A DNA stretch of 64,000 nucleotides from Sanghuangporus weigelae (taxonomy: Eukaryota > Basidiomycota > Agaricomycetes > Hymenochaetales > Hymenochaetaceae): positions 992,001 through 1,056,000 of the forward strand of contig CP137318.1 of NCBI GenBank assembly GCA_033182465.1, written 5' to 3'. A program made the position numbers and the translations under genes. Shown piece after piece: positions 4,885 through 30,462 of this stretch. Within the stretch, counting starts at the first letter, position 1, and every line of letters starts with the position of its first letter. The notes under the pieces are model-generated. The model did no database searches, was not told where the DNA came from, and saw only the letters and a program-made list of their open reading frames with translations.

Positions 4885-4977
4885 TAATAAATATTAATCT
4901 GACTTCTGACTTGCTTTACAAGAAGTAGAGTTTGCAGTATATCATATATGATATTTGAAATAAGACATATTAGCTAT

Positions 4978-5159
4978 ACATACATATATGGTATGACCTA
5001 TTGGACATACATATGTATACAATATGACCTATTGGACATACGTACATATACGGTATGGCCTATCAGACATACATACGTATACGGTATGGCCTATCGGACA
5101 TACGTACGTATACGGTATAGCCTATCGGACATACATATGTATACGGTATGGCCGATCAA
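4978..5159. repeat. 31-bp minisatellite, about six copies
   Basis: Units start at 4,978 (27 bp), 5,005, 5,036, 5,067, 5,098 and 5,129, each of 31 bp after the first. A typical unit begins ACATACGTACGTATACGG and ends GGCCTATCGG. Units carry perfect palindromes such as ATACGTACGTAT and GTATAC. The array lies between the 3' ends of the recombinase gene and the convergent unknown gene. An open plus-strand frame runs through it only because the repeat lacks stops. Confidence 0.9.
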
Positions 5160-5214
5160 GCATATGTATATATATATAATATATGCAAAGTTCAAAATTC
5201 TAGCATAAATCTGC

Positions 5215-7063: not shown

Positions 7064-7110
7064 CTGAAAATAAGTGTCAGGGAAGGAAGTTGAAGTTGTG
7101 GTAGTGAGTA

Positions 7111-7690
7111 CGAGCGTACTTTGTTACGGAAGAAGCTCCGCCCCGGTTCTTGCATCGCAATCTGACGACAACGATCTTCTGTCGCGCGCGCGACCAGGCC
7201 ACTCGGCGGTCCAGAGAGGCGGCGGTGAGCTGAGCCAGCGAGAGCGAGACGGCATTTTGAGGAGAATGTCGACATGACGAGGTCCCGGGAGATCGGGTGA
7301 GGCGGCCTCTCGAGGACGCGATGTACTGGCCAGGACGAGCGCAGTTTGTTACGGAAGAAGCTCCAGCCCCGGTTCCTACAGAGGCGGCAGTGAGCCAGCG
7401 AGAGCGAGACGGCATTTTGAGGAGAATGTCGACATGACGGGGTCCCGGGAGATCGAGTGAGGCAGCCTCGCGACGGGATGTACTAGCCAGGACGAGCGTA
7501 CTTTGTTACGGAAGAAGCTCCAGCCAGCCCCGGTTCCTGCGTCGCATCTGACGACAACGATCTTCTGTCGCGCGCGAGAAGGCCGCTCGCAGCGACGGTG
7601 GAGGCCATCGGCGGTTCCGGAGAGAGGCGGCGATGAGCCAGCGAGAGCGAGCCGGCTTGAGGAGAATGTCGACATGACGAGGTCTGTGGA
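7111..7690. repeat. GC-rich tandem repeat, three imperfect copies
   Basis: Three copies begin with CGAGCG and a TTTGTTACGGAAGAAGCTCC core at 7,111, 7,336 and 7,493. Each ends with a TTGAGGAGAATGTCGACATGACG-like block. The spacing is 225, 157 and about 200 bp. The middle copy lacks a block of roughly 65 bp containing TGACGACAACGATCTTCTGT that the first and third copies share. Open frames across it in several phases are a side effect of GC-rich repetition. Confidence 0.8.
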
Positions 7691-8200
7691 TATCGCGTCG
7701 AATCTCAGCAAGATGAACGGTGTTGATTAAGGAGCAAAGAGAGTGAGTACACACCTAGAATAGGAGTGAGCACATTTGAAGATGATGAAGAAAGTGCGCG
7801 TGCGTGCGCGTGTTCGTCGGACTCACCTTGAGAAGTGCTAGAGAATGACCTTGAGTGAGTTTGGAAGGTCGTCCGTGAAGTAAAGTGAAGTAAATAAAAG
7901 AAAGTAAGAGCATGGACCGTGCAGAACGGCCCATACTCTTACTTCCTCGCTCGCGGCCGGCCCAGCTGCTCGAAAGAGTGCGTGCGCGTCACAAAGGACG
8001 ACGGCAGGCCCTCCGAGGGCTTACGAGGGCTTGCTAAGCGGTGCCGGGGGCGGCTTCACCATAAGGGGCAGGAGGACCCTTCGCTTACGGTAAGCGGGCT
8101 TGGCGTCTCTCGACAATCGTCGAGAGACCGATTACATCAGCGACCCCCACCCAGGCCCGGTCTCTCGACAAAACAAAGCGATATCTCCGACCTAAGATAA
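7691..8200. other. GC-rich spacer with a 10-bp perfect hairpin
   Basis: No gene recognised. At 8,105-8,128 GTCTCTCGAC and its exact inverse GTCGAGAGAC are parted by four bases; a third copy of GTCTCTCGAC follows at 8,160. An open frame at 7,919-8,200 has no protein-like character. Confidence 0.5.
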
Positions 8201-8607
8201 GGTAGGCGAAAGTTAAACTCGACAAGCTGTGATGCGACACGTGCCTAACCCCACCTTCCTTTCTCAGCTCACACATTGATGCATAAATTCCGACAAGACA
8301 CAACCTCAAAATCATATTTGGTCACCATTCGATTGTAGGGAATGTAGATAGCTACAGATTGTTGGTCTTATTTCTCAAAAATATGAAATTTTGAGGGCAG
8401 AATTTCAGAAAAAGTTTTTTTGTATAAAATGCTTTAGAAGTCATTTCTCTGCATTTTGGCGAAGTTTGTAAAACTTACCCTCCAATTTTGGCCAGGGTTC
8501 ATATTACTAAGAACTTTATATATAAACATTACTAAGCATTACTAACTCGGCAATATTACTAAGCATTATTAATCAGCTTGTCTACTAAAAGATCTTGTCA
8601 CTAATGA

Positions 8608-8985
8608 CACACCGGGCAAAGAGTTATTATAATCTAAAAGAAATTTGTAATTAGCTGACAAACAAGATTTGAAATTAAATACTGCATTTAATTACGTGAA
8701 ATATTTCATGTTTGTTCCTTGATAGAACTTGAAATAACAATAAGGATTTAGATTCGGATTAGGAAAACAAAGAGATTTCAAATAATGTCGTGTGAGGAAC
8801 ACATAAAGAAATTTGAAGTCTTAGAAAAGCAAAAATGGTTACGTTTAGTTATTGCCGAAATTTTATGTCTTTGATAGGAAAAAATTTAAAGTTCTTTTTA
8901 TTATTCTGACAAAGAAAAAATAAGTTTGACTCTCAGTGGGCGCTCAGCGGGCGATCAGAGGGCACTCAGCGGGCACTCAGCGTCC
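8608..8985 (+). repeat. Left terminal inverted repeat of the Pack-TIR element
   Basis: Matches 10,688-11,106 inverted. Over the outer 0.33 kb the two arms differ by a 7-base indel (TTCAAAT near 8,785) and a few substitutions. The inner part has three to four degenerate GC-rich units, fewer than the right arm. Confidence 0.9.
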
Positions 8986-9029
8986 TGATATTTCACCATA
9001 CATACAATGCTTAACCAGTCCATGCATCC

Positions 9030-10680
9030 TCTATATAGCTCTTCAATAAAATAAGCATGCAGATGCATTTCTTCAGTATGGATGGATCTTTGAAAGGCAC
9101 TTAATGAACGGAGAGTAAGTCTACCATTCAGTAGCGTCTGATCTAGTCTCATTTATCTATCAACGCAGTTATGTCCTCTTCAACAGACAGCCATAATTGC
9201 ACGCACAAATGTCTATGATGTGTCACAGGGTCCGACTAATGCCCTATTCAAGTGCGTGCTCGACCTATATGTTCATGTCTGAACTCTGACCAATTTTATG
9301 CAGCCTTTCGTCTCAATCTTTCCGTTACTCCTCCGTACAATGCCAACTTCGATGGTGATGAAATGAACATGCAGTACGTCGTATCACTGCCGCCTTGTGC
9401 TGTCGTTTCTCATCTTCGTGTAGTGTCCCCCAGAGCGAGGAGACTCGGGCCGAGTTCAGTCAAATAGAATGGGTCCCCAGGCAGATCATTTCGCCCCAAG
9501 CGAACAAGCCCGTTATTGGTATCGTGCAGGATACTCTTTGCGGTATCCGCGAGTTCACCTTGCGAGGTTGTTCCCTTGATTGGCAACAAGTACAGAATAT
9601 ACTGCTTTGGGTACCGAATTGGGACGGCACGATCCCAACGCCAACCATTTTGAAACCCAATTTTTTATGGACGGGCAAGCAAATTCTTAGCATGACAATC
9701 CCGCGTGGGATCAACATTTTCCGGTCGCCCGAGAACAAGTCATGGAGTCGATGATTGCATACTGATCGAGAATGGCGAGATCATCTTTGGTATTGTTGAG
9801 AAAGAAGACCGTTGGCGCATCCCAGGGCGGCCTAGTGCACGTTGTTTTCCGAGAGAAAGGTCCTGAAGCTACACGATCGCTCTTTACGGGTCTGCAGAAT
9901 ATCGTCAATTATTGGCTGTTCCACAATGAATTCAGTATCGGTATCGGCGATACGGTTGCAGACAGAAAAACGATGGCGTACATCATGGAGCAGATTAAGA
10001 TGCGGAAACAGAATGTGGCCAAAGTCCATAGAAGATGCGGCCATGGATCGCCTGAAAGCAGCTCCGGATATGACTATCCAGGAATCCTTCGAGAGTCAAG
10101 TCGAACGGGAGCTCAGTTTGGCTCGTGATCCCTCCGGTCAATATGCTCAGGAGAACCACAAAGAGGACAATAATGTCAAGCAGATGGTAGTCGCTGGTTC
10201 CAAGGGTTCCTTCATCAACATCTCCCAGATGTCTGTTTGCGTCGGTCAGCAATCCGTCGTAGGGAAGCATATCCCGTTCGACTTCGGACATCGAACACTT
10301 CCGCACTTCACGAAGGATGATTTCAGTCCAGAGGCGCGGGGTTTCATTGAGAATTCCTACTTGCGTGGATTAACACCGCAAGTGTTCTTCTTTCACGCCA
10401 TGGCGGGTCGCGAGGGATTAATTGACACGGCTGTCAAGACGGCGGAGATTGGCTACATCCAACGGCGGCTTGTCAAGGCTCTAGAAGACCATGGTACATT
10501 ACGACGGGACTGTTCGGAACTCGTTGGGTGATCTCATACAGTTCGTCTATGGCAAAGGTGGCATGGATGAGACTTTCATTGAGAGACAGAGCATTAAAAC
10601 GTTCAGTATCAATGATCGCGAATTCGAGCATCGCTACCGTGTCGATGTTGCAGATCCGAAGGTGGCTTCCCTCCTATTGC
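9030..10680 (+). pseudogene. Captured fragment of RPB1, RNA polymerase II largest subunit
   Basis: Plus-strand translation follows the central part of RPB1 for about 440 residues: DAFLQYGW and ERHL (near 9,060), [28 protein letters not shown] (near 9,300-9,370), [98 protein letters not shown] and FEHRYRVDV (near 10,650). The genomic introns are kept (for example GTAAGT..GCAG ending near 9,173 and GTGCGT..TGCAG ending near 9,302), so it was taken from DNA. It is broken: an in-frame TAA in the FNRQPSL motif, several frame changes, and the catalytic loop NADFDGD reads NANFDGD, so one of the three metal-binding aspartates is gone. It starts and stops mid-gene exactly within the inverted repeats. 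Confidence 0.92.
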
Positions 10681-10687
10681 CCGCTGA

Positions 10688-11106
10688 TCGCCCTCTGAGC
10701 GCCCGCTGAGCACCCTCTGAGCGCATCCTCTGAGCGCCCGCTGAGCACCCTCTGATCGCCCGCCGATCGCCCGCTGAGCGCCCACTGAGAGTCAAACTTA
10801 TTTTTTCTTTGTCAGAATAATAAAAAGAATTTTAAATGTTTTCCTATCAAAGACATAAAATTTCGGCAATAACTAAACGTAACCATTTTTGCTTTTCTAA
10901 GACTTCAAATTTTTTTATGTGTTCCTCACACGACATTATCTCTTTGTTTTCCTAATCCGAATCTAAATCCTTATTGTTATTTCAAGTTCTATCAAGGAAC
11001 AAACATGAAATATTTCACGTAATTAAATGCAGTATTTAATTTCAAATCTTGTTTGTCAGCTAATTACAAATTTCTTTTAGATTATAATAACTCTTTGCCC
11101 GGTGTG
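10688..11106 (-). repeat. Right terminal inverted repeat of the Pack-TIR element
   Basis: Inverse of 8,608-8,985. The inner part holds about ten GC-rich units of 10-12 bp (CGCCCGCTGAG, CACCCTCTGAG and variants), more than the left arm, so these subterminal repeats have expanded or contracted since the arms formed. Confidence 0.9.
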
Positions 11107-11448
11107 TGATACTCAAGCATGGATGTCACTATGTTCAGAGAGCCTTGGGTGCAAGAACTCTTGCTGAAATGTCTTCTGGGGCTGAGCTATCTGTGTACTC
11201 CACACTTCAACATCAATTTTTTTTTGAGATTTGGCCATCAGGGTCCTTCCAAATGGGGAAATACTAATTAAAGTTTAGGGTTGTGACCGTGACGTCACAA
11301 CCTGTCGAGTTTACTTTCGCCTACCTGAACGCACGTTCCCCGGTCCGGAACGGGATCTTTCATTTCATTGCAACATTCACCACAATTAACTCATCCCGCA
11401 TACTCTTCTATCGAAAGAGCTCTCGTTCGACTCGCAACCACTAGAGAC
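11107..11448. other. Right part of outer element and promoter of the phosphatase
   Basis: Up to 11,326 this is the remainder of the outer TIR element. The following 120 bases up to the ATG at 11,449 hold the core promoter and leader of the inositol monophosphatase gene, so the outer element sits very close to the transcription start. Confidence 0.5.
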
Positions 11449-12875
11449 ATGGCTTCCAATGATATTACGTCTGCAGAGCTGAAGGAGATTCTCGATTTCT
11501 CCATTAATCTGGCTCGAGAAGCTGGAAAAATCATCTTGGAAGGCTCAGACGCTATCTTGCGAGCCTCAGCAGATGCGGTTGACGTGAAGAAAAATTCCGT
11601 GGACTTGGTCACGGAGTACGATAAGGGGGTAGAAGAACTGGTACAGCAGAGGACAAGAAGTGCCTACCCAACTTTCGGTTTGTGAGTGTGGATCTTACGA
11701 CTTGAACATTCTGTAATTGCTGATGTCTGACAGCTTGGGCGAGGAAGAGACGTCAGCACAAGGAAAACTCCCTGAGCTGACTGATGGTCCTATTTTCTGT
11801 GTTGATCCAATCGGTTTGTACAGGATACAGTGTGATTGTAGACTTGGTGAAAATGACTGGCTTTCAGACGGGACAGTGAACTTTGTGCATGGCTTCCCGT
11901 TCGCTTGCATCTCCATCGGTTTGATCAATCAGAAGCGTCCTGTCTTGGGCGTAATCTACAATCCGTTCATCGACTGGCTGGTCCGTATGCGTTCATCATG
12001 CAAATTTGTGTACTTCAGTTCGTGAAAGCTGACTATGTCGTTTGCGAAGTATTATGGCGCTGAAGGTCAAGGGTCGTATCTCGTGAAGGCTGGCGGCCCG
12101 CCACAGAAACTTCCTTTGGCCCCTCCTCGCCCACTTCCTTCTCTGTCTCAGGCACTCATGGCAATAGAATGGGGATCCGATCGTGCGACGGAACAGATGA
12201 ACGCACGCGCAACATCATTTGTTCGGCTAGCGGGTGACGGAACCCAGATTGAGCATGGTAAGATGGCGCATTCGCTCCGCTCCATGGGGAGTGCCGCATT
12301 GAACTTCGCCGCGGTGGCGAGTGGTTCGCTGGACTTGTACTGGTGTGTTTATTTTTTAATGAAATCCCAGTGCGCATAAACTCAATTGTCGTCAAGGGAA
12401 ATCGGATGCTGGTAGGCTTTTTTGACCTGTATAACCATTACCCCGTTTCTGACTATTTTAAGGCCTTGGGATGTTTGCGTAAGAGTCTCATGTGTCAACC
12501 CACTTTACGTCCAAAGAAGTCTTACCTCAACTACAGGCCGGTTCCATCATCGCTCAAGAAGCAGGTTGCATAGTTAGCACTTCTGACCTCTCCGTGCATG
12601 GAGGAGAGGTCACAGGTGATATTTCCGATAAAGTATTGACAAGCAGGAAGTATATTGTAATGAGGTAAGCCTTATTTCCGTCCAGGACTAGAATTTCATT
12701 ATAATCATGTTCCTTTAGGGCTATTTCAGACACCGAGGTATGCCTACACGTCTATATACCCCATCCTGATCACCAAGATGTTCCATAGAACGAAAAGGGA
12801 GTCGATATCCAGAAGCGTCTCATCAAGGAGTTCTGCGAGACCATTGTAGACTTCAATCCTAGTTCTAAGATGTAG
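11449..12875 (+). CDS. Inositol-1-monophosphatase, complete, nine exons
   Basis: Exons at 11,449-11,681, 11,734-11,813, 11,868-11,980, 12,050-12,342, 12,397-12,411, 12,463-12,478, 12,537-12,664, 12,719-12,737 and 12,798-12,875 join in frame to 324 residues. The enzyme removes the phosphate from myo-inositol monophosphates with Mg2+, the last step of inositol synthesis and recycling. The metal-binding motifs are all present: GEEE near residues 80-83, DPIDGT (102-107, split by an intron inside the ID pair) and WPWD (245-248, spread over two micro-exons of 15 and 16 bp). EIGCWPWDVCAG can only be read when both micro-exons are used, which fixes the model. Length fits the family (about 270-330). 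It stands alone, head-to-tail with NOG2, 247 bp upstream of its start. Confidence 0.93.
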
Positions 12876-20500: not shown

Positions 20501-21776
20501 GTTATCGGTGACCTGATCATACATCTATTACGACGGGCAAGTTCTTCCATTGTTTCCGTTTTGCCTGAGCTTCTGCAGGCAATGGTACGCAGAATGCAGA
20601 CTGCGAAGACGGCAACGTTTGTTCAAAGTCTCGTCATTCCATTCGCTTTTTTGATGCAGAGCGAGAGAGATACGGTCCTTTCCCTCCTTGAGGGTATTGA
20701 TGTGAATGGCCGTTCTGGACTTGATATTCTCATTCAGACATGGTGCGAGAATGCCGAAGTGTTCCAAGGGTTCTGGCCAAGTCGAGTCAGGTAAGAGAGA
20801 TTTTTTCGAAGAAACTTAAAGCTGATTGTTTTAAAAGTACTCTCGGGCTTTGTCAGCTTTTCACGTCACAGCGGCCGAGTCTACAAAGCCTTCTTGTGAA
20901 AGGTGACATTATTGTAACCCCGGAAACGAGGGATGGTGAGTGCTTGTATTCCATTTTTACTAGGTTTGATTGGATGCGAGCTCGATACCCAGTCATTGTC
21001 ACGCGTTCTAGGGCAAAGAAGAGTGCGCTGTGTTTTTATCCTAACATCGGACTAATCATAACTTACGATTGTGCCCTTTTAGCACCACATGAGTTCACGA
21101 AAATTCCATTTCCTGTAAAGGCTCTTAAGCTTATCGTGAGCGACCTGCATTCAAATGGCGAATCCGCCACGATGGGCACAGTTACGACTCAGGCTGGGAG
21201 CATCGGTGCTGAATCGGATGATGGGGTGAGTGATTGCAGATTTTGGGGCATCGATGGCAACTATATTAACTACGTAATAGGATGAAGACTGGGAAGACGA
21301 GGACGGTGTAAATCCGTTGAATAAAGACGAGATAGCCTTTTTGTCCGGTGAGTGTCTGCGCACTTACGTAAAAAATTCTGAGCTGAATCTCTGGTGATAG
21401 ACATGCTCGGGCCGCGGGCTGGTGCCTTTGATGAGGATGACATTCCTGATGATATTGATGACGAGGATCTGAAGAATGACCCCATTTCTCAGATGGACAT
21501 GACGGTGAGAGCATTCCTCGCTTTTTCACAGCAGTCCTCGCGGGGGTCCAACGACGCTTGTTGGTGTTGCTCTCACCGTCAATGGCACTAATTATAATGC
21601 GCCTCGTTTTTGTTTCCAATTTTCTGATCACTCTTACTCCTGGACAGGCCCACTTGATATCTTTCGTGAAGGAGTGCGCATCCCACAATACTAACAATTT
21701 CTCTGGTGTCGTAAACCAGATGAGTGCGGAGGAAATGCTTGTTATTCAACGGCTCCTCAACGAATCGCGTGGGTAA
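17549..21776 (+). CDS. Importin-9 / Kap114-type karyopherin, about 20 exons
   Basis: Importin-beta family receptor that carries histones H2A-H2B, TBP and other cargo into the nucleus. Exons join in frame from 17,549 (MDSEVLQCL, importin N-terminal HEAT region) through SLRQITVIVLHKYVKERW (18 kb), SSDWPDEYPDLLSSL, ECPFLQGRGFVFASQY (19.6 kb), RIAKDLGPFLLATTEDTL (19.8 kb), IPFPVKALKLIVSDL (21.1 kb), the acidic DEDWEDEDGV loop (21.3 kb) typical of this subfamily, and NMSAEE-like VNQMSAEEMLVIQ at the stop. Total length is about 1,030 residues, matching IPO9/Kap114. Most introns are 45-60 bp. One join is unsolved: between 19,690 and 19,790 no GT..AG pair links VKAIQK to PVALRIAKD in frame, although DDKAVVSHLE, which belongs there, is readable in another phase. 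This is either an indel or an unusual intron. Confidence 0.9.
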
Positions 21777-29137: not shown

Positions 29138-30462
29138 CTAATTCAATTCTGTTTCTATGCGTTTCCATACGCTGACCATACACTCGACATATTCCTTCGA
29201 ATGGGTATACGGATACCTTTTGACTTTCTTCTCGTTGACGATGAAATCAATGAGCAAAGTTTCGTCCCGCATGATTTGGGATCCCTTCTGGAGTACACGG
29301 ACAATAGATTCAAGACGGGGCAGCTGGTCTTGCGCTTTCGTCAAATTGTCGTTTGCTATCCGAATAGAATCCTCTAGAAGCTGTATCTCTTTGCCAAGTC
29401 TGCTGATCTTTTCGGTATTCGACATCTGACTCCACGTAACCGATGGTAAATCGCTTGGGTTGCTGGCGGACAAGCTACGTGATCGCTTCCCGAGTATTGA
29501 TCGTGATCTCTCTTGATTTGAAGAGGCGGCGGTCTGACGTTCTAGCTGTTGTAAATAAGACCGGAGACGTTCCAATTCTGCTTTCTTTGCGTCCATCCTG
29601 GAGTTTGAATCTGACGACAGCGTCGTATTCACCTCTATCAGCTTGCGCTGCGACTCCACTTCATGCTTGGAAGCGTCCAAGTGCGCAAAGATTCTCTGAC
29701 GCAGTCGCTGGGCTTTCTCCTTGTACGAAGCTCCTCTTGGCCAGCTAAGCACCGGGTCCTCCACGTCCTGTGCCTCGACTTCTATGAGAAAGTATACATC
29801 ATCCAAAAGTCCCTTTGTGTCAACCATCTCAACTGGATTAAGGTGTCTTTGAAGTGAATCAAGCTGCTGCTGCTTGGTTGCATCCTTCTGCGCGGTAGGT
29901 AAGTCAGGAAAGAAAGTGCAAATTGCAGCATCGAGGATTCCACGTGAGGCTAAATCCAAGACGCGGCCGAGAACAATAGCATTTCTCCCGTTGGTATCCT
30001 ACATCTCTGTTAGAAGGCTTACACAAGAACCGCGAAGATGAACGCACGCAGAGAACTGCACGCTCGACGAGATCCGAGCGAGCATAGAAATCCCAAACCT
30101 GCGGTGTAAATATTTCTCGGAGTGAGGTGACTTCTTTGCTCATTGCAGCCACCATCACTTGTAGCTTCTGCAGTCGTCGGAGCTGTTTCTCAGCTATCAT
30201 CTGCAGCGCTTGCAGCTGTCCCTCCGCGTTTCCTTTGCACCCGCAAGTCTCGCATAACGTTCCAGCATCACTGGCGGAAGTCAAGCTGGAAATCTCAAGA
30301 CGCCACTCGTCAATGATCTCGATGGAGCGATGGGCAGCGGCATGGATCCCTAAGAAGACATGGCAGACTAGTGAGAAGTAGGAGGGGAAAGCACATGAAA
30401 GGAAACAAACCGATATGATAGCCATCGTCGTCGTCGTCGCTGACTTCCGACCGAGTAGCCAT
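29138..30462 (-). CDS. Tandem paralogue A, coiled-coil protein with CxxC motif, unknown
   Basis: Three exons (30,411-30,462; 30,048-30,349; 29,138-29,998) give 404 residues. After a short acidic start (SEVSDDDDDGYHIG) comes a helix with IEIIDEWRLEI, a CETCGCKG motif that could bind a metal, a long coiled coil, the conserved block LVERAVLC, GILDAAICTFFPDLP, and a second coiled-coil half; the end contains YPYTHSKEYVECM. No known family is recognised. It is clearly related to the next gene (paralogue B): same exon order, second exon of exactly 302 bp in both, same block order. The two lie head-to-tail, so they arose by tandem duplication. Confidence 0.75.

Follow-up and report, generated by a model that had tools for sequence, protein, structure and literature searches.

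Capture of a housekeeping gene by fungal TIR transposons has been described for histone H3. According to the available text of the reports, histone H3 is carried by hAT elements of Pyrenophora tritici-repentis, which was called the first example of transduplication in fungi (PMC3538342), and by hAT elements of Pseudocercospora fijiensis and its relatives, where the cargo of P. fijiensis is without introns and thus points to a transcript origin (PMC6710886). The plant Pack-CACTA or Pack-TYPE elements are described as non-autonomous, with TIRs, a short target-site duplication (TSD) and a piece of host coding DNA, and the capture model includes the aberrant excision and joining of neighbouring copies (PMC8903248, PMC13317346). 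Fungal EnSpm families, as presented in the available part of their description, have CAC..GTG ends and a 3-bp TSD, their ends being defined by CAC only, and code for a transposase, joined in some of them by a TET/JBP dioxygenase (PMC12730594). Finally, the Helitrons of Pleurotus ostreatus are fungal transposons with extra genes for which gene capture has been discussed; in the available text, the intact copies hold no P. ostreatus gene fragments (PMC4289320).

In the 64-kb stretch of Sanghuangporus weigelae DNA analysed here (the window), a non-autonomous EnSpm/CACTA-like TIR element very probably captured a 1.6-kb segment of host RPB1 DNA and was later inserted within an older element upstream of an inositol-monophosphatase gene. 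As in the histone H3 elements of Dothideomycetes, a fungal TIR DNA transposon carries housekeeping-gene sequence between its repeats. However, those elements are described as carrying hAT sequence, with high copy number and, in P. fijiensis, an 8-bp TSD and an intronless cargo hit by RIP, whereas the present element has a 3-bp TSD and retains introns, and no RIP bias was concluded. It resembles the plant Pack-CACTA elements in being non-autonomous, with TIRs, a short TSD and a piece of host coding DNA, but its ends are CACACCGGGC and not the CACTACAA given in the available descriptions, its arms are far longer and its cargo derives from a single gene. With the fungal EnSpm families it has the ends and the TSD length in common, while encoding neither transposase nor dioxygenase. 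Helitrons, in contrast, have neither TIRs nor TSD. The coordinates of all features are collected in Table 1.

Table 1 Features of the RPB1-carrying element and its surroundings, in window coordinates
Feature	Position	Strand	Remarks
Enclosing inverted-repeat element	8200..11326	.	625 bp without the inner element and one TGA
TGA target-site duplication, left	8605..8607	.	comparison of bases outside the ends
Non-autonomous TIR element, whole	8608..11106	.	2499 bp
Left inverted-repeat arm	8608..8982	+	blastn; 375 bp; from 8933 on, its inner end consists of arrayed 11-bp GC-rich units
Stretch from left array to first recognisable RPB1 codon	8983..9049	+	67 bp
RPB1 genomic segment, presumably captured; pseudogene as assembled	9050..10676	+	Pfam, phmmer; 5x4z_A residues from about 423 to 906
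Retained intron 1	9115..9168	+	54 bp, GTAAGT..GCAG
Retained intron 2	9252..9303	+	52 bp, GTGCGT..GCAG
Exon with catalytic loop	9304..9373	+	NANFDGD; compared chains have NADFDGD
Retained intron 3	9374..9423	+	50 bp, GTACGT..GTAG
Right array of 11-bp GC-rich units	10680..10790	-	repeat family D1; longer than the left array
Right inverted-repeat arm, paired part	10739..11106	-	blastn; 368 bp
TGA target-site duplication, right	11107..11109	.	comparison of bases outside the ends
Inositol-monophosphatase gene, first exon, downstream	11449..11682	+	Pfam 28.7 bits, cut-off 27

Comparison of the element with the window by blastn aligned the two arms over 375 columns with 95.5% identity (E 9.5e-171). 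The unique part of the arms (324 and 317 bp) contains only 3 mismatches and one 7-bp gap, and the longest exact inverted match within the element reaches 169 nt, whereas 30 mononucleotide shuffles gave 10-16 nt. TGA flanks both ends, and among the TSD lengths from 2 to 10 that were tested a full match was obtained only at length 3; for a 3-bp TSD by itself, the chance of a match is 1/64. The initial annotation had described long inverted repeats with TGA outside both ends, and its coordinates turned out to be nearly base-exact. From just the TSD and the ends of this single copy in the window, we infer that the element has transposed. With 3 of 317 compared bases differing (about 0.95%), its latest insertion looks recent, provided that the arms were equal at that time. 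The inner ends of the arms consist of arrays of 11-bp units (repeat families D1 and D2), with four regular units and one partial unit in the left array and nine motif hits from about 10682 in the right one. We considered whether the array unit copies the terminal motif and dropped the idea: the best agreement, 8 of 11 positions, was equalled by 1805 of 20000 shuffled termini.

Between the arms lies a single block of about 1.6 kb of collinear RPB1 sequence in sense orientation, comprising the Pfam domains Rpb1_3, Rpb1_4 and Rpb1_5. When pieces of this cargo were compared with the PDB sequence set by phmmer, the four longer ones had Pol II largest subunits as top matches (best E-values 2.8e-41, 1.1e-24, 1.2e-69 and 2.2e-16), and the exon with the catalytic loop reached 1.1e-7. 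Three short pieces (E 0.27, 0.12 and 0.17) are singly not significant; each was topped by RPB1 at the collinear place. The top chain was 3h0g_A, which we take to be that of fission yeast, for the pieces with E-values of 2.8e-41, 1.1e-24, 1.2e-69, 1.1e-7 and 0.17, and 5x4z_A, presumably a Komagataella chain, for those with 2.2e-16, 0.27 and 0.12, which points to a fungal RPB1 as the source of the cargo. At the 3' end, the position of the final RPB1 residues varies with the chain compared (10661 or 10676) and in either case lies short of the right array. The 67 bp that precede the first recognisable codon are possibly RPB1 intron or exon. Outside the element, none of the six flanking open stretches of at least 36 aa contained RPB1 according to Pfam, and one of them matched DUF5845 below the family cut-off (E 0.0017). 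As far as Pfam sees, RPB1 therefore does not run past the repeats; such a continuation had been named in the initial annotation as an observation that would speak against the capture.

Three introns with GT..AG ends are retained in the cargo, and the codons flanking all three join in the RPB1 frame. Both the 1.6-kb RPB1 piece and its introns had been proposed in the initial annotation, and the Pfam domains, the collinear phmmer matches and the joined codons bear this out. Because the introns are kept, the segment was evidently taken up as DNA and not from a transcript, which excludes a retrocopy.

The reading frame of the cargo is changed four times, and an in-frame TAA occurs at 9194 within the second exon, with a further TAA at 9047 in the poorly supported start of the cargo. 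Owing to the frame changes, the in-frame stop and the altered catalytic loop, the cargo as assembled is evidently a pseudogene, its lesions excluding a role as protein. We also compared the substitution load of two cargo blocks with a control at columns invariant in three chains, using a Fisher test. The first block had 18 of 122 invariant columns changed compared with 9 of 131 in the control (p 0.065), while the second showed the opposite direction (9 of 65 compared with 21 of 86, p 0.15). The idea of heavy substitution decay was dropped, as the two blocks disagree and the load is not clearly above ordinary lineage divergence; it gives no clear age, and the case for lost coding capacity thus relies only on the stops, the frame changes and the NANFDGD loop. 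No RIP bias of the cargo was concluded from three dinucleotide indices compared with the window: TpA/ApT (0.51 vs 0.70), CpG observed/expected (1.05 vs 1.02) and (CpA+TpG)/(ApC+GpT) (1.29 vs 1.18).

The interior of the element consists of RPB1, the repeats and the 67-bp stretch, and its two ORFs of at least 130 aa gave RPB1 domains only in Pfam. For this reason the element has no transposase of its own and is non-autonomous, as the initial annotation had stated. With TIRs and a TSD, host-gene sequence confined between the repeats and no transposase of its own, it has the features of a Pack-type TIR element (transduplication). Across the window, Pfam scans of 29 of the 72 listed ORFs and of the first exon of the inositol-monophosphatase gene gave no transposase match, and blastn found no second copy within the 64 kb other than the element itself. 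A window scan with the terminal 16-mer, allowing up to 3 mismatches, gave four matches, two of them being the element ends, where 0.37 would be expected by chance. Two weak matches with 3 mismatches each are located on the minus strand at 21337-21352 and 29387-29402; they are not shown to be elements. In IMG/VR, neither the terminal 19-mer nor an inner 21-mer was matched, and a translated search with the RPB1 piece gave four pattern matches, none of which was confirmed. Among prokaryote genomes the terminal 19-mer had one match (Meiothermus), about the chance level in 257 Gb. Absence from IMG/VR and from the prokaryote genomes says little, because these collections are not meant for fungi.

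The RPB1-carrying element is nested in an older inverted-repeat element, whose arms (8200-8232 and 11295-11326) align by blastn over 33 columns with 90.9% identity and which has no clear TSD. The left remnant of this enclosing element is CpG-poor (0.63 vs 1.02 in the window). The enclosing element ends 122 bp before the ATG of the inositol-monophosphatase gene, and the inner element 342 bp before it. Elsewhere in the window, an ORF on the minus strand (48-1145) has a gag zinc knuckle together with weak matches to gag/Ty3 capsid and likely belongs to a Ty3-type retroelement, AT-rich 31-bp tandem repeats occupy 4930-5177, and GC-rich blocks repeated about 160 bp apart (families D2-D4) are found at 7090-7700.

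Concerning the superfamily, the element is best placed with EnSpm/CACTA-like transposons, a kinship that is drawn from the ends and the TSD length only and is consistent but unproven. The CACTA relationship proposed in the initial annotation stands as regards the CAC..GTG ends and the 3-bp TSD, but not as regards a terminal CACTA, since the element ends in CACAC, nor is it backed by a transposase. TIRs of CACTA elements are usually shorter than the arms of about 370 bp seen here. The ends CACAC..GTGTG rule out PlavakaA and PlavakaB, which are given as TGT..ACA and CATCA..TGATG, respectively (PMC12730594, available part). A hAT origin was rejected with only 1 of 8 positions matching for an 8-bp TSD. 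Mutator-like elements (Pack-MULE) have a TSD of about 9 bp, and 4 of 9 positions matched at that length. The same capture by an element of a different TIR superfamily (Academ, PIF/Harbinger or a foldback-like group, for instance) is a substantial possibility, if not the one we favour: long arms with tandem 11-bp units at their inner side are foldback-like, and 3-base duplications also occur outside EnSpm. On the other hand, TGA is unlike the TWA of Harbinger, the duplication of 8-10 bp expected for hAT and MULE is absent, and the combination of CAC..GTG ends with a 3-bp TSD fits fungal EnSpm families as far as these are described in the available text (PMC12730594).

The remaining alternatives concern how RPB1 came to lie between the arms and what it does there. 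A duplicated RPB1 segment might be flanked by chance by two independent copies of a short element in inverted orientation, without the whole ever having moved as a unit, a stage that the published capture model includes according to the available text (PMC8903248, PMC13317346). We regard this as unlikely, considering that TGA lies outside the two outer ends, that each arm is without an inner terminus of its own, and that the whole sits within the inverted repeats of another element, as a single insertion would. A processed pseudogene or a viral RPB1 relic enclosed by chance would fit the frame changes and the stop in a general way; the retained introns refute the retrocopy, and the top matches are eukaryotic Pol II subunits, with 8q3b_A, a chain named RPB1 homolog that we take to be viral, reaching 2.6e-12 as against 1.2e-69, and we give this explanation practically no weight. 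Finally, it would be speculation, with a very slim chance of being right, that read-through transcripts of the element form double-stranded or antisense RNA and bring about RNA silencing of the parent RPB1. In such a transcript the arms, each about 370 bp long, would pair with one another, and the RPB1 piece is long and sense-oriented, but it is the arms that pair and not the RPB1 piece, and selection would act against the silencing of an essential gene.

Capture by a non-autonomous EnSpm/CACTA-like element followed by insertion as a unit thus remains the best explanation of the observed arms, TSD, cargo identity and orientation, retained introns, lost coding capacity and nesting. A related autonomous element would supply the transposase in trans, and this enzyme would recognise the element ends and probably also the 11-bp arrays. 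The RPB1 DNA would have been captured at the DNA level between the two arrays, either when two neighbouring copies were aberrantly excised and joined, as in the Pack-CACTA model, or through faulty repair in the arrays. The cargo would then be a passenger without protein function.

The initial annotation considered an essential-gene cargo unusual. In kind it is not, as TIR transposons of fungi have already been published as carriers of captured housekeeping genes, judging from the available text of the reports (PMC3538342, PMC6710886); what sets the present case apart from that printed transduplication is the retention of introns, the different TSD and the RPB1 cargo. The literature matches listed included no report of RPB1 captured by a transposon, which is not proof of absence, and among the 14 papers containing the terminal 10-mer none was, by title, on a fungal transposon.

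RPB1 serves as a standard marker for the phylogeny of fungi, and for this reason the finding carries a practical warning: a transposon-borne RPB1 pseudogene could be amplified or annotated in error. As a long shot, a fungal EnSpm-like element that captures genomic gene segments with their introns might be the counterpart of plant Pack-CACTA, here with the catalytic core region of Pol II as cargo, and, should it have multiplied, its transcripts with their hairpin ends could couple the silencing of transposons to host Pol II levels. If sister copies exist, the few housekeeping-gene captures of fungi would gain a second kind of transposon, along with a second route that works at the DNA level and keeps introns.
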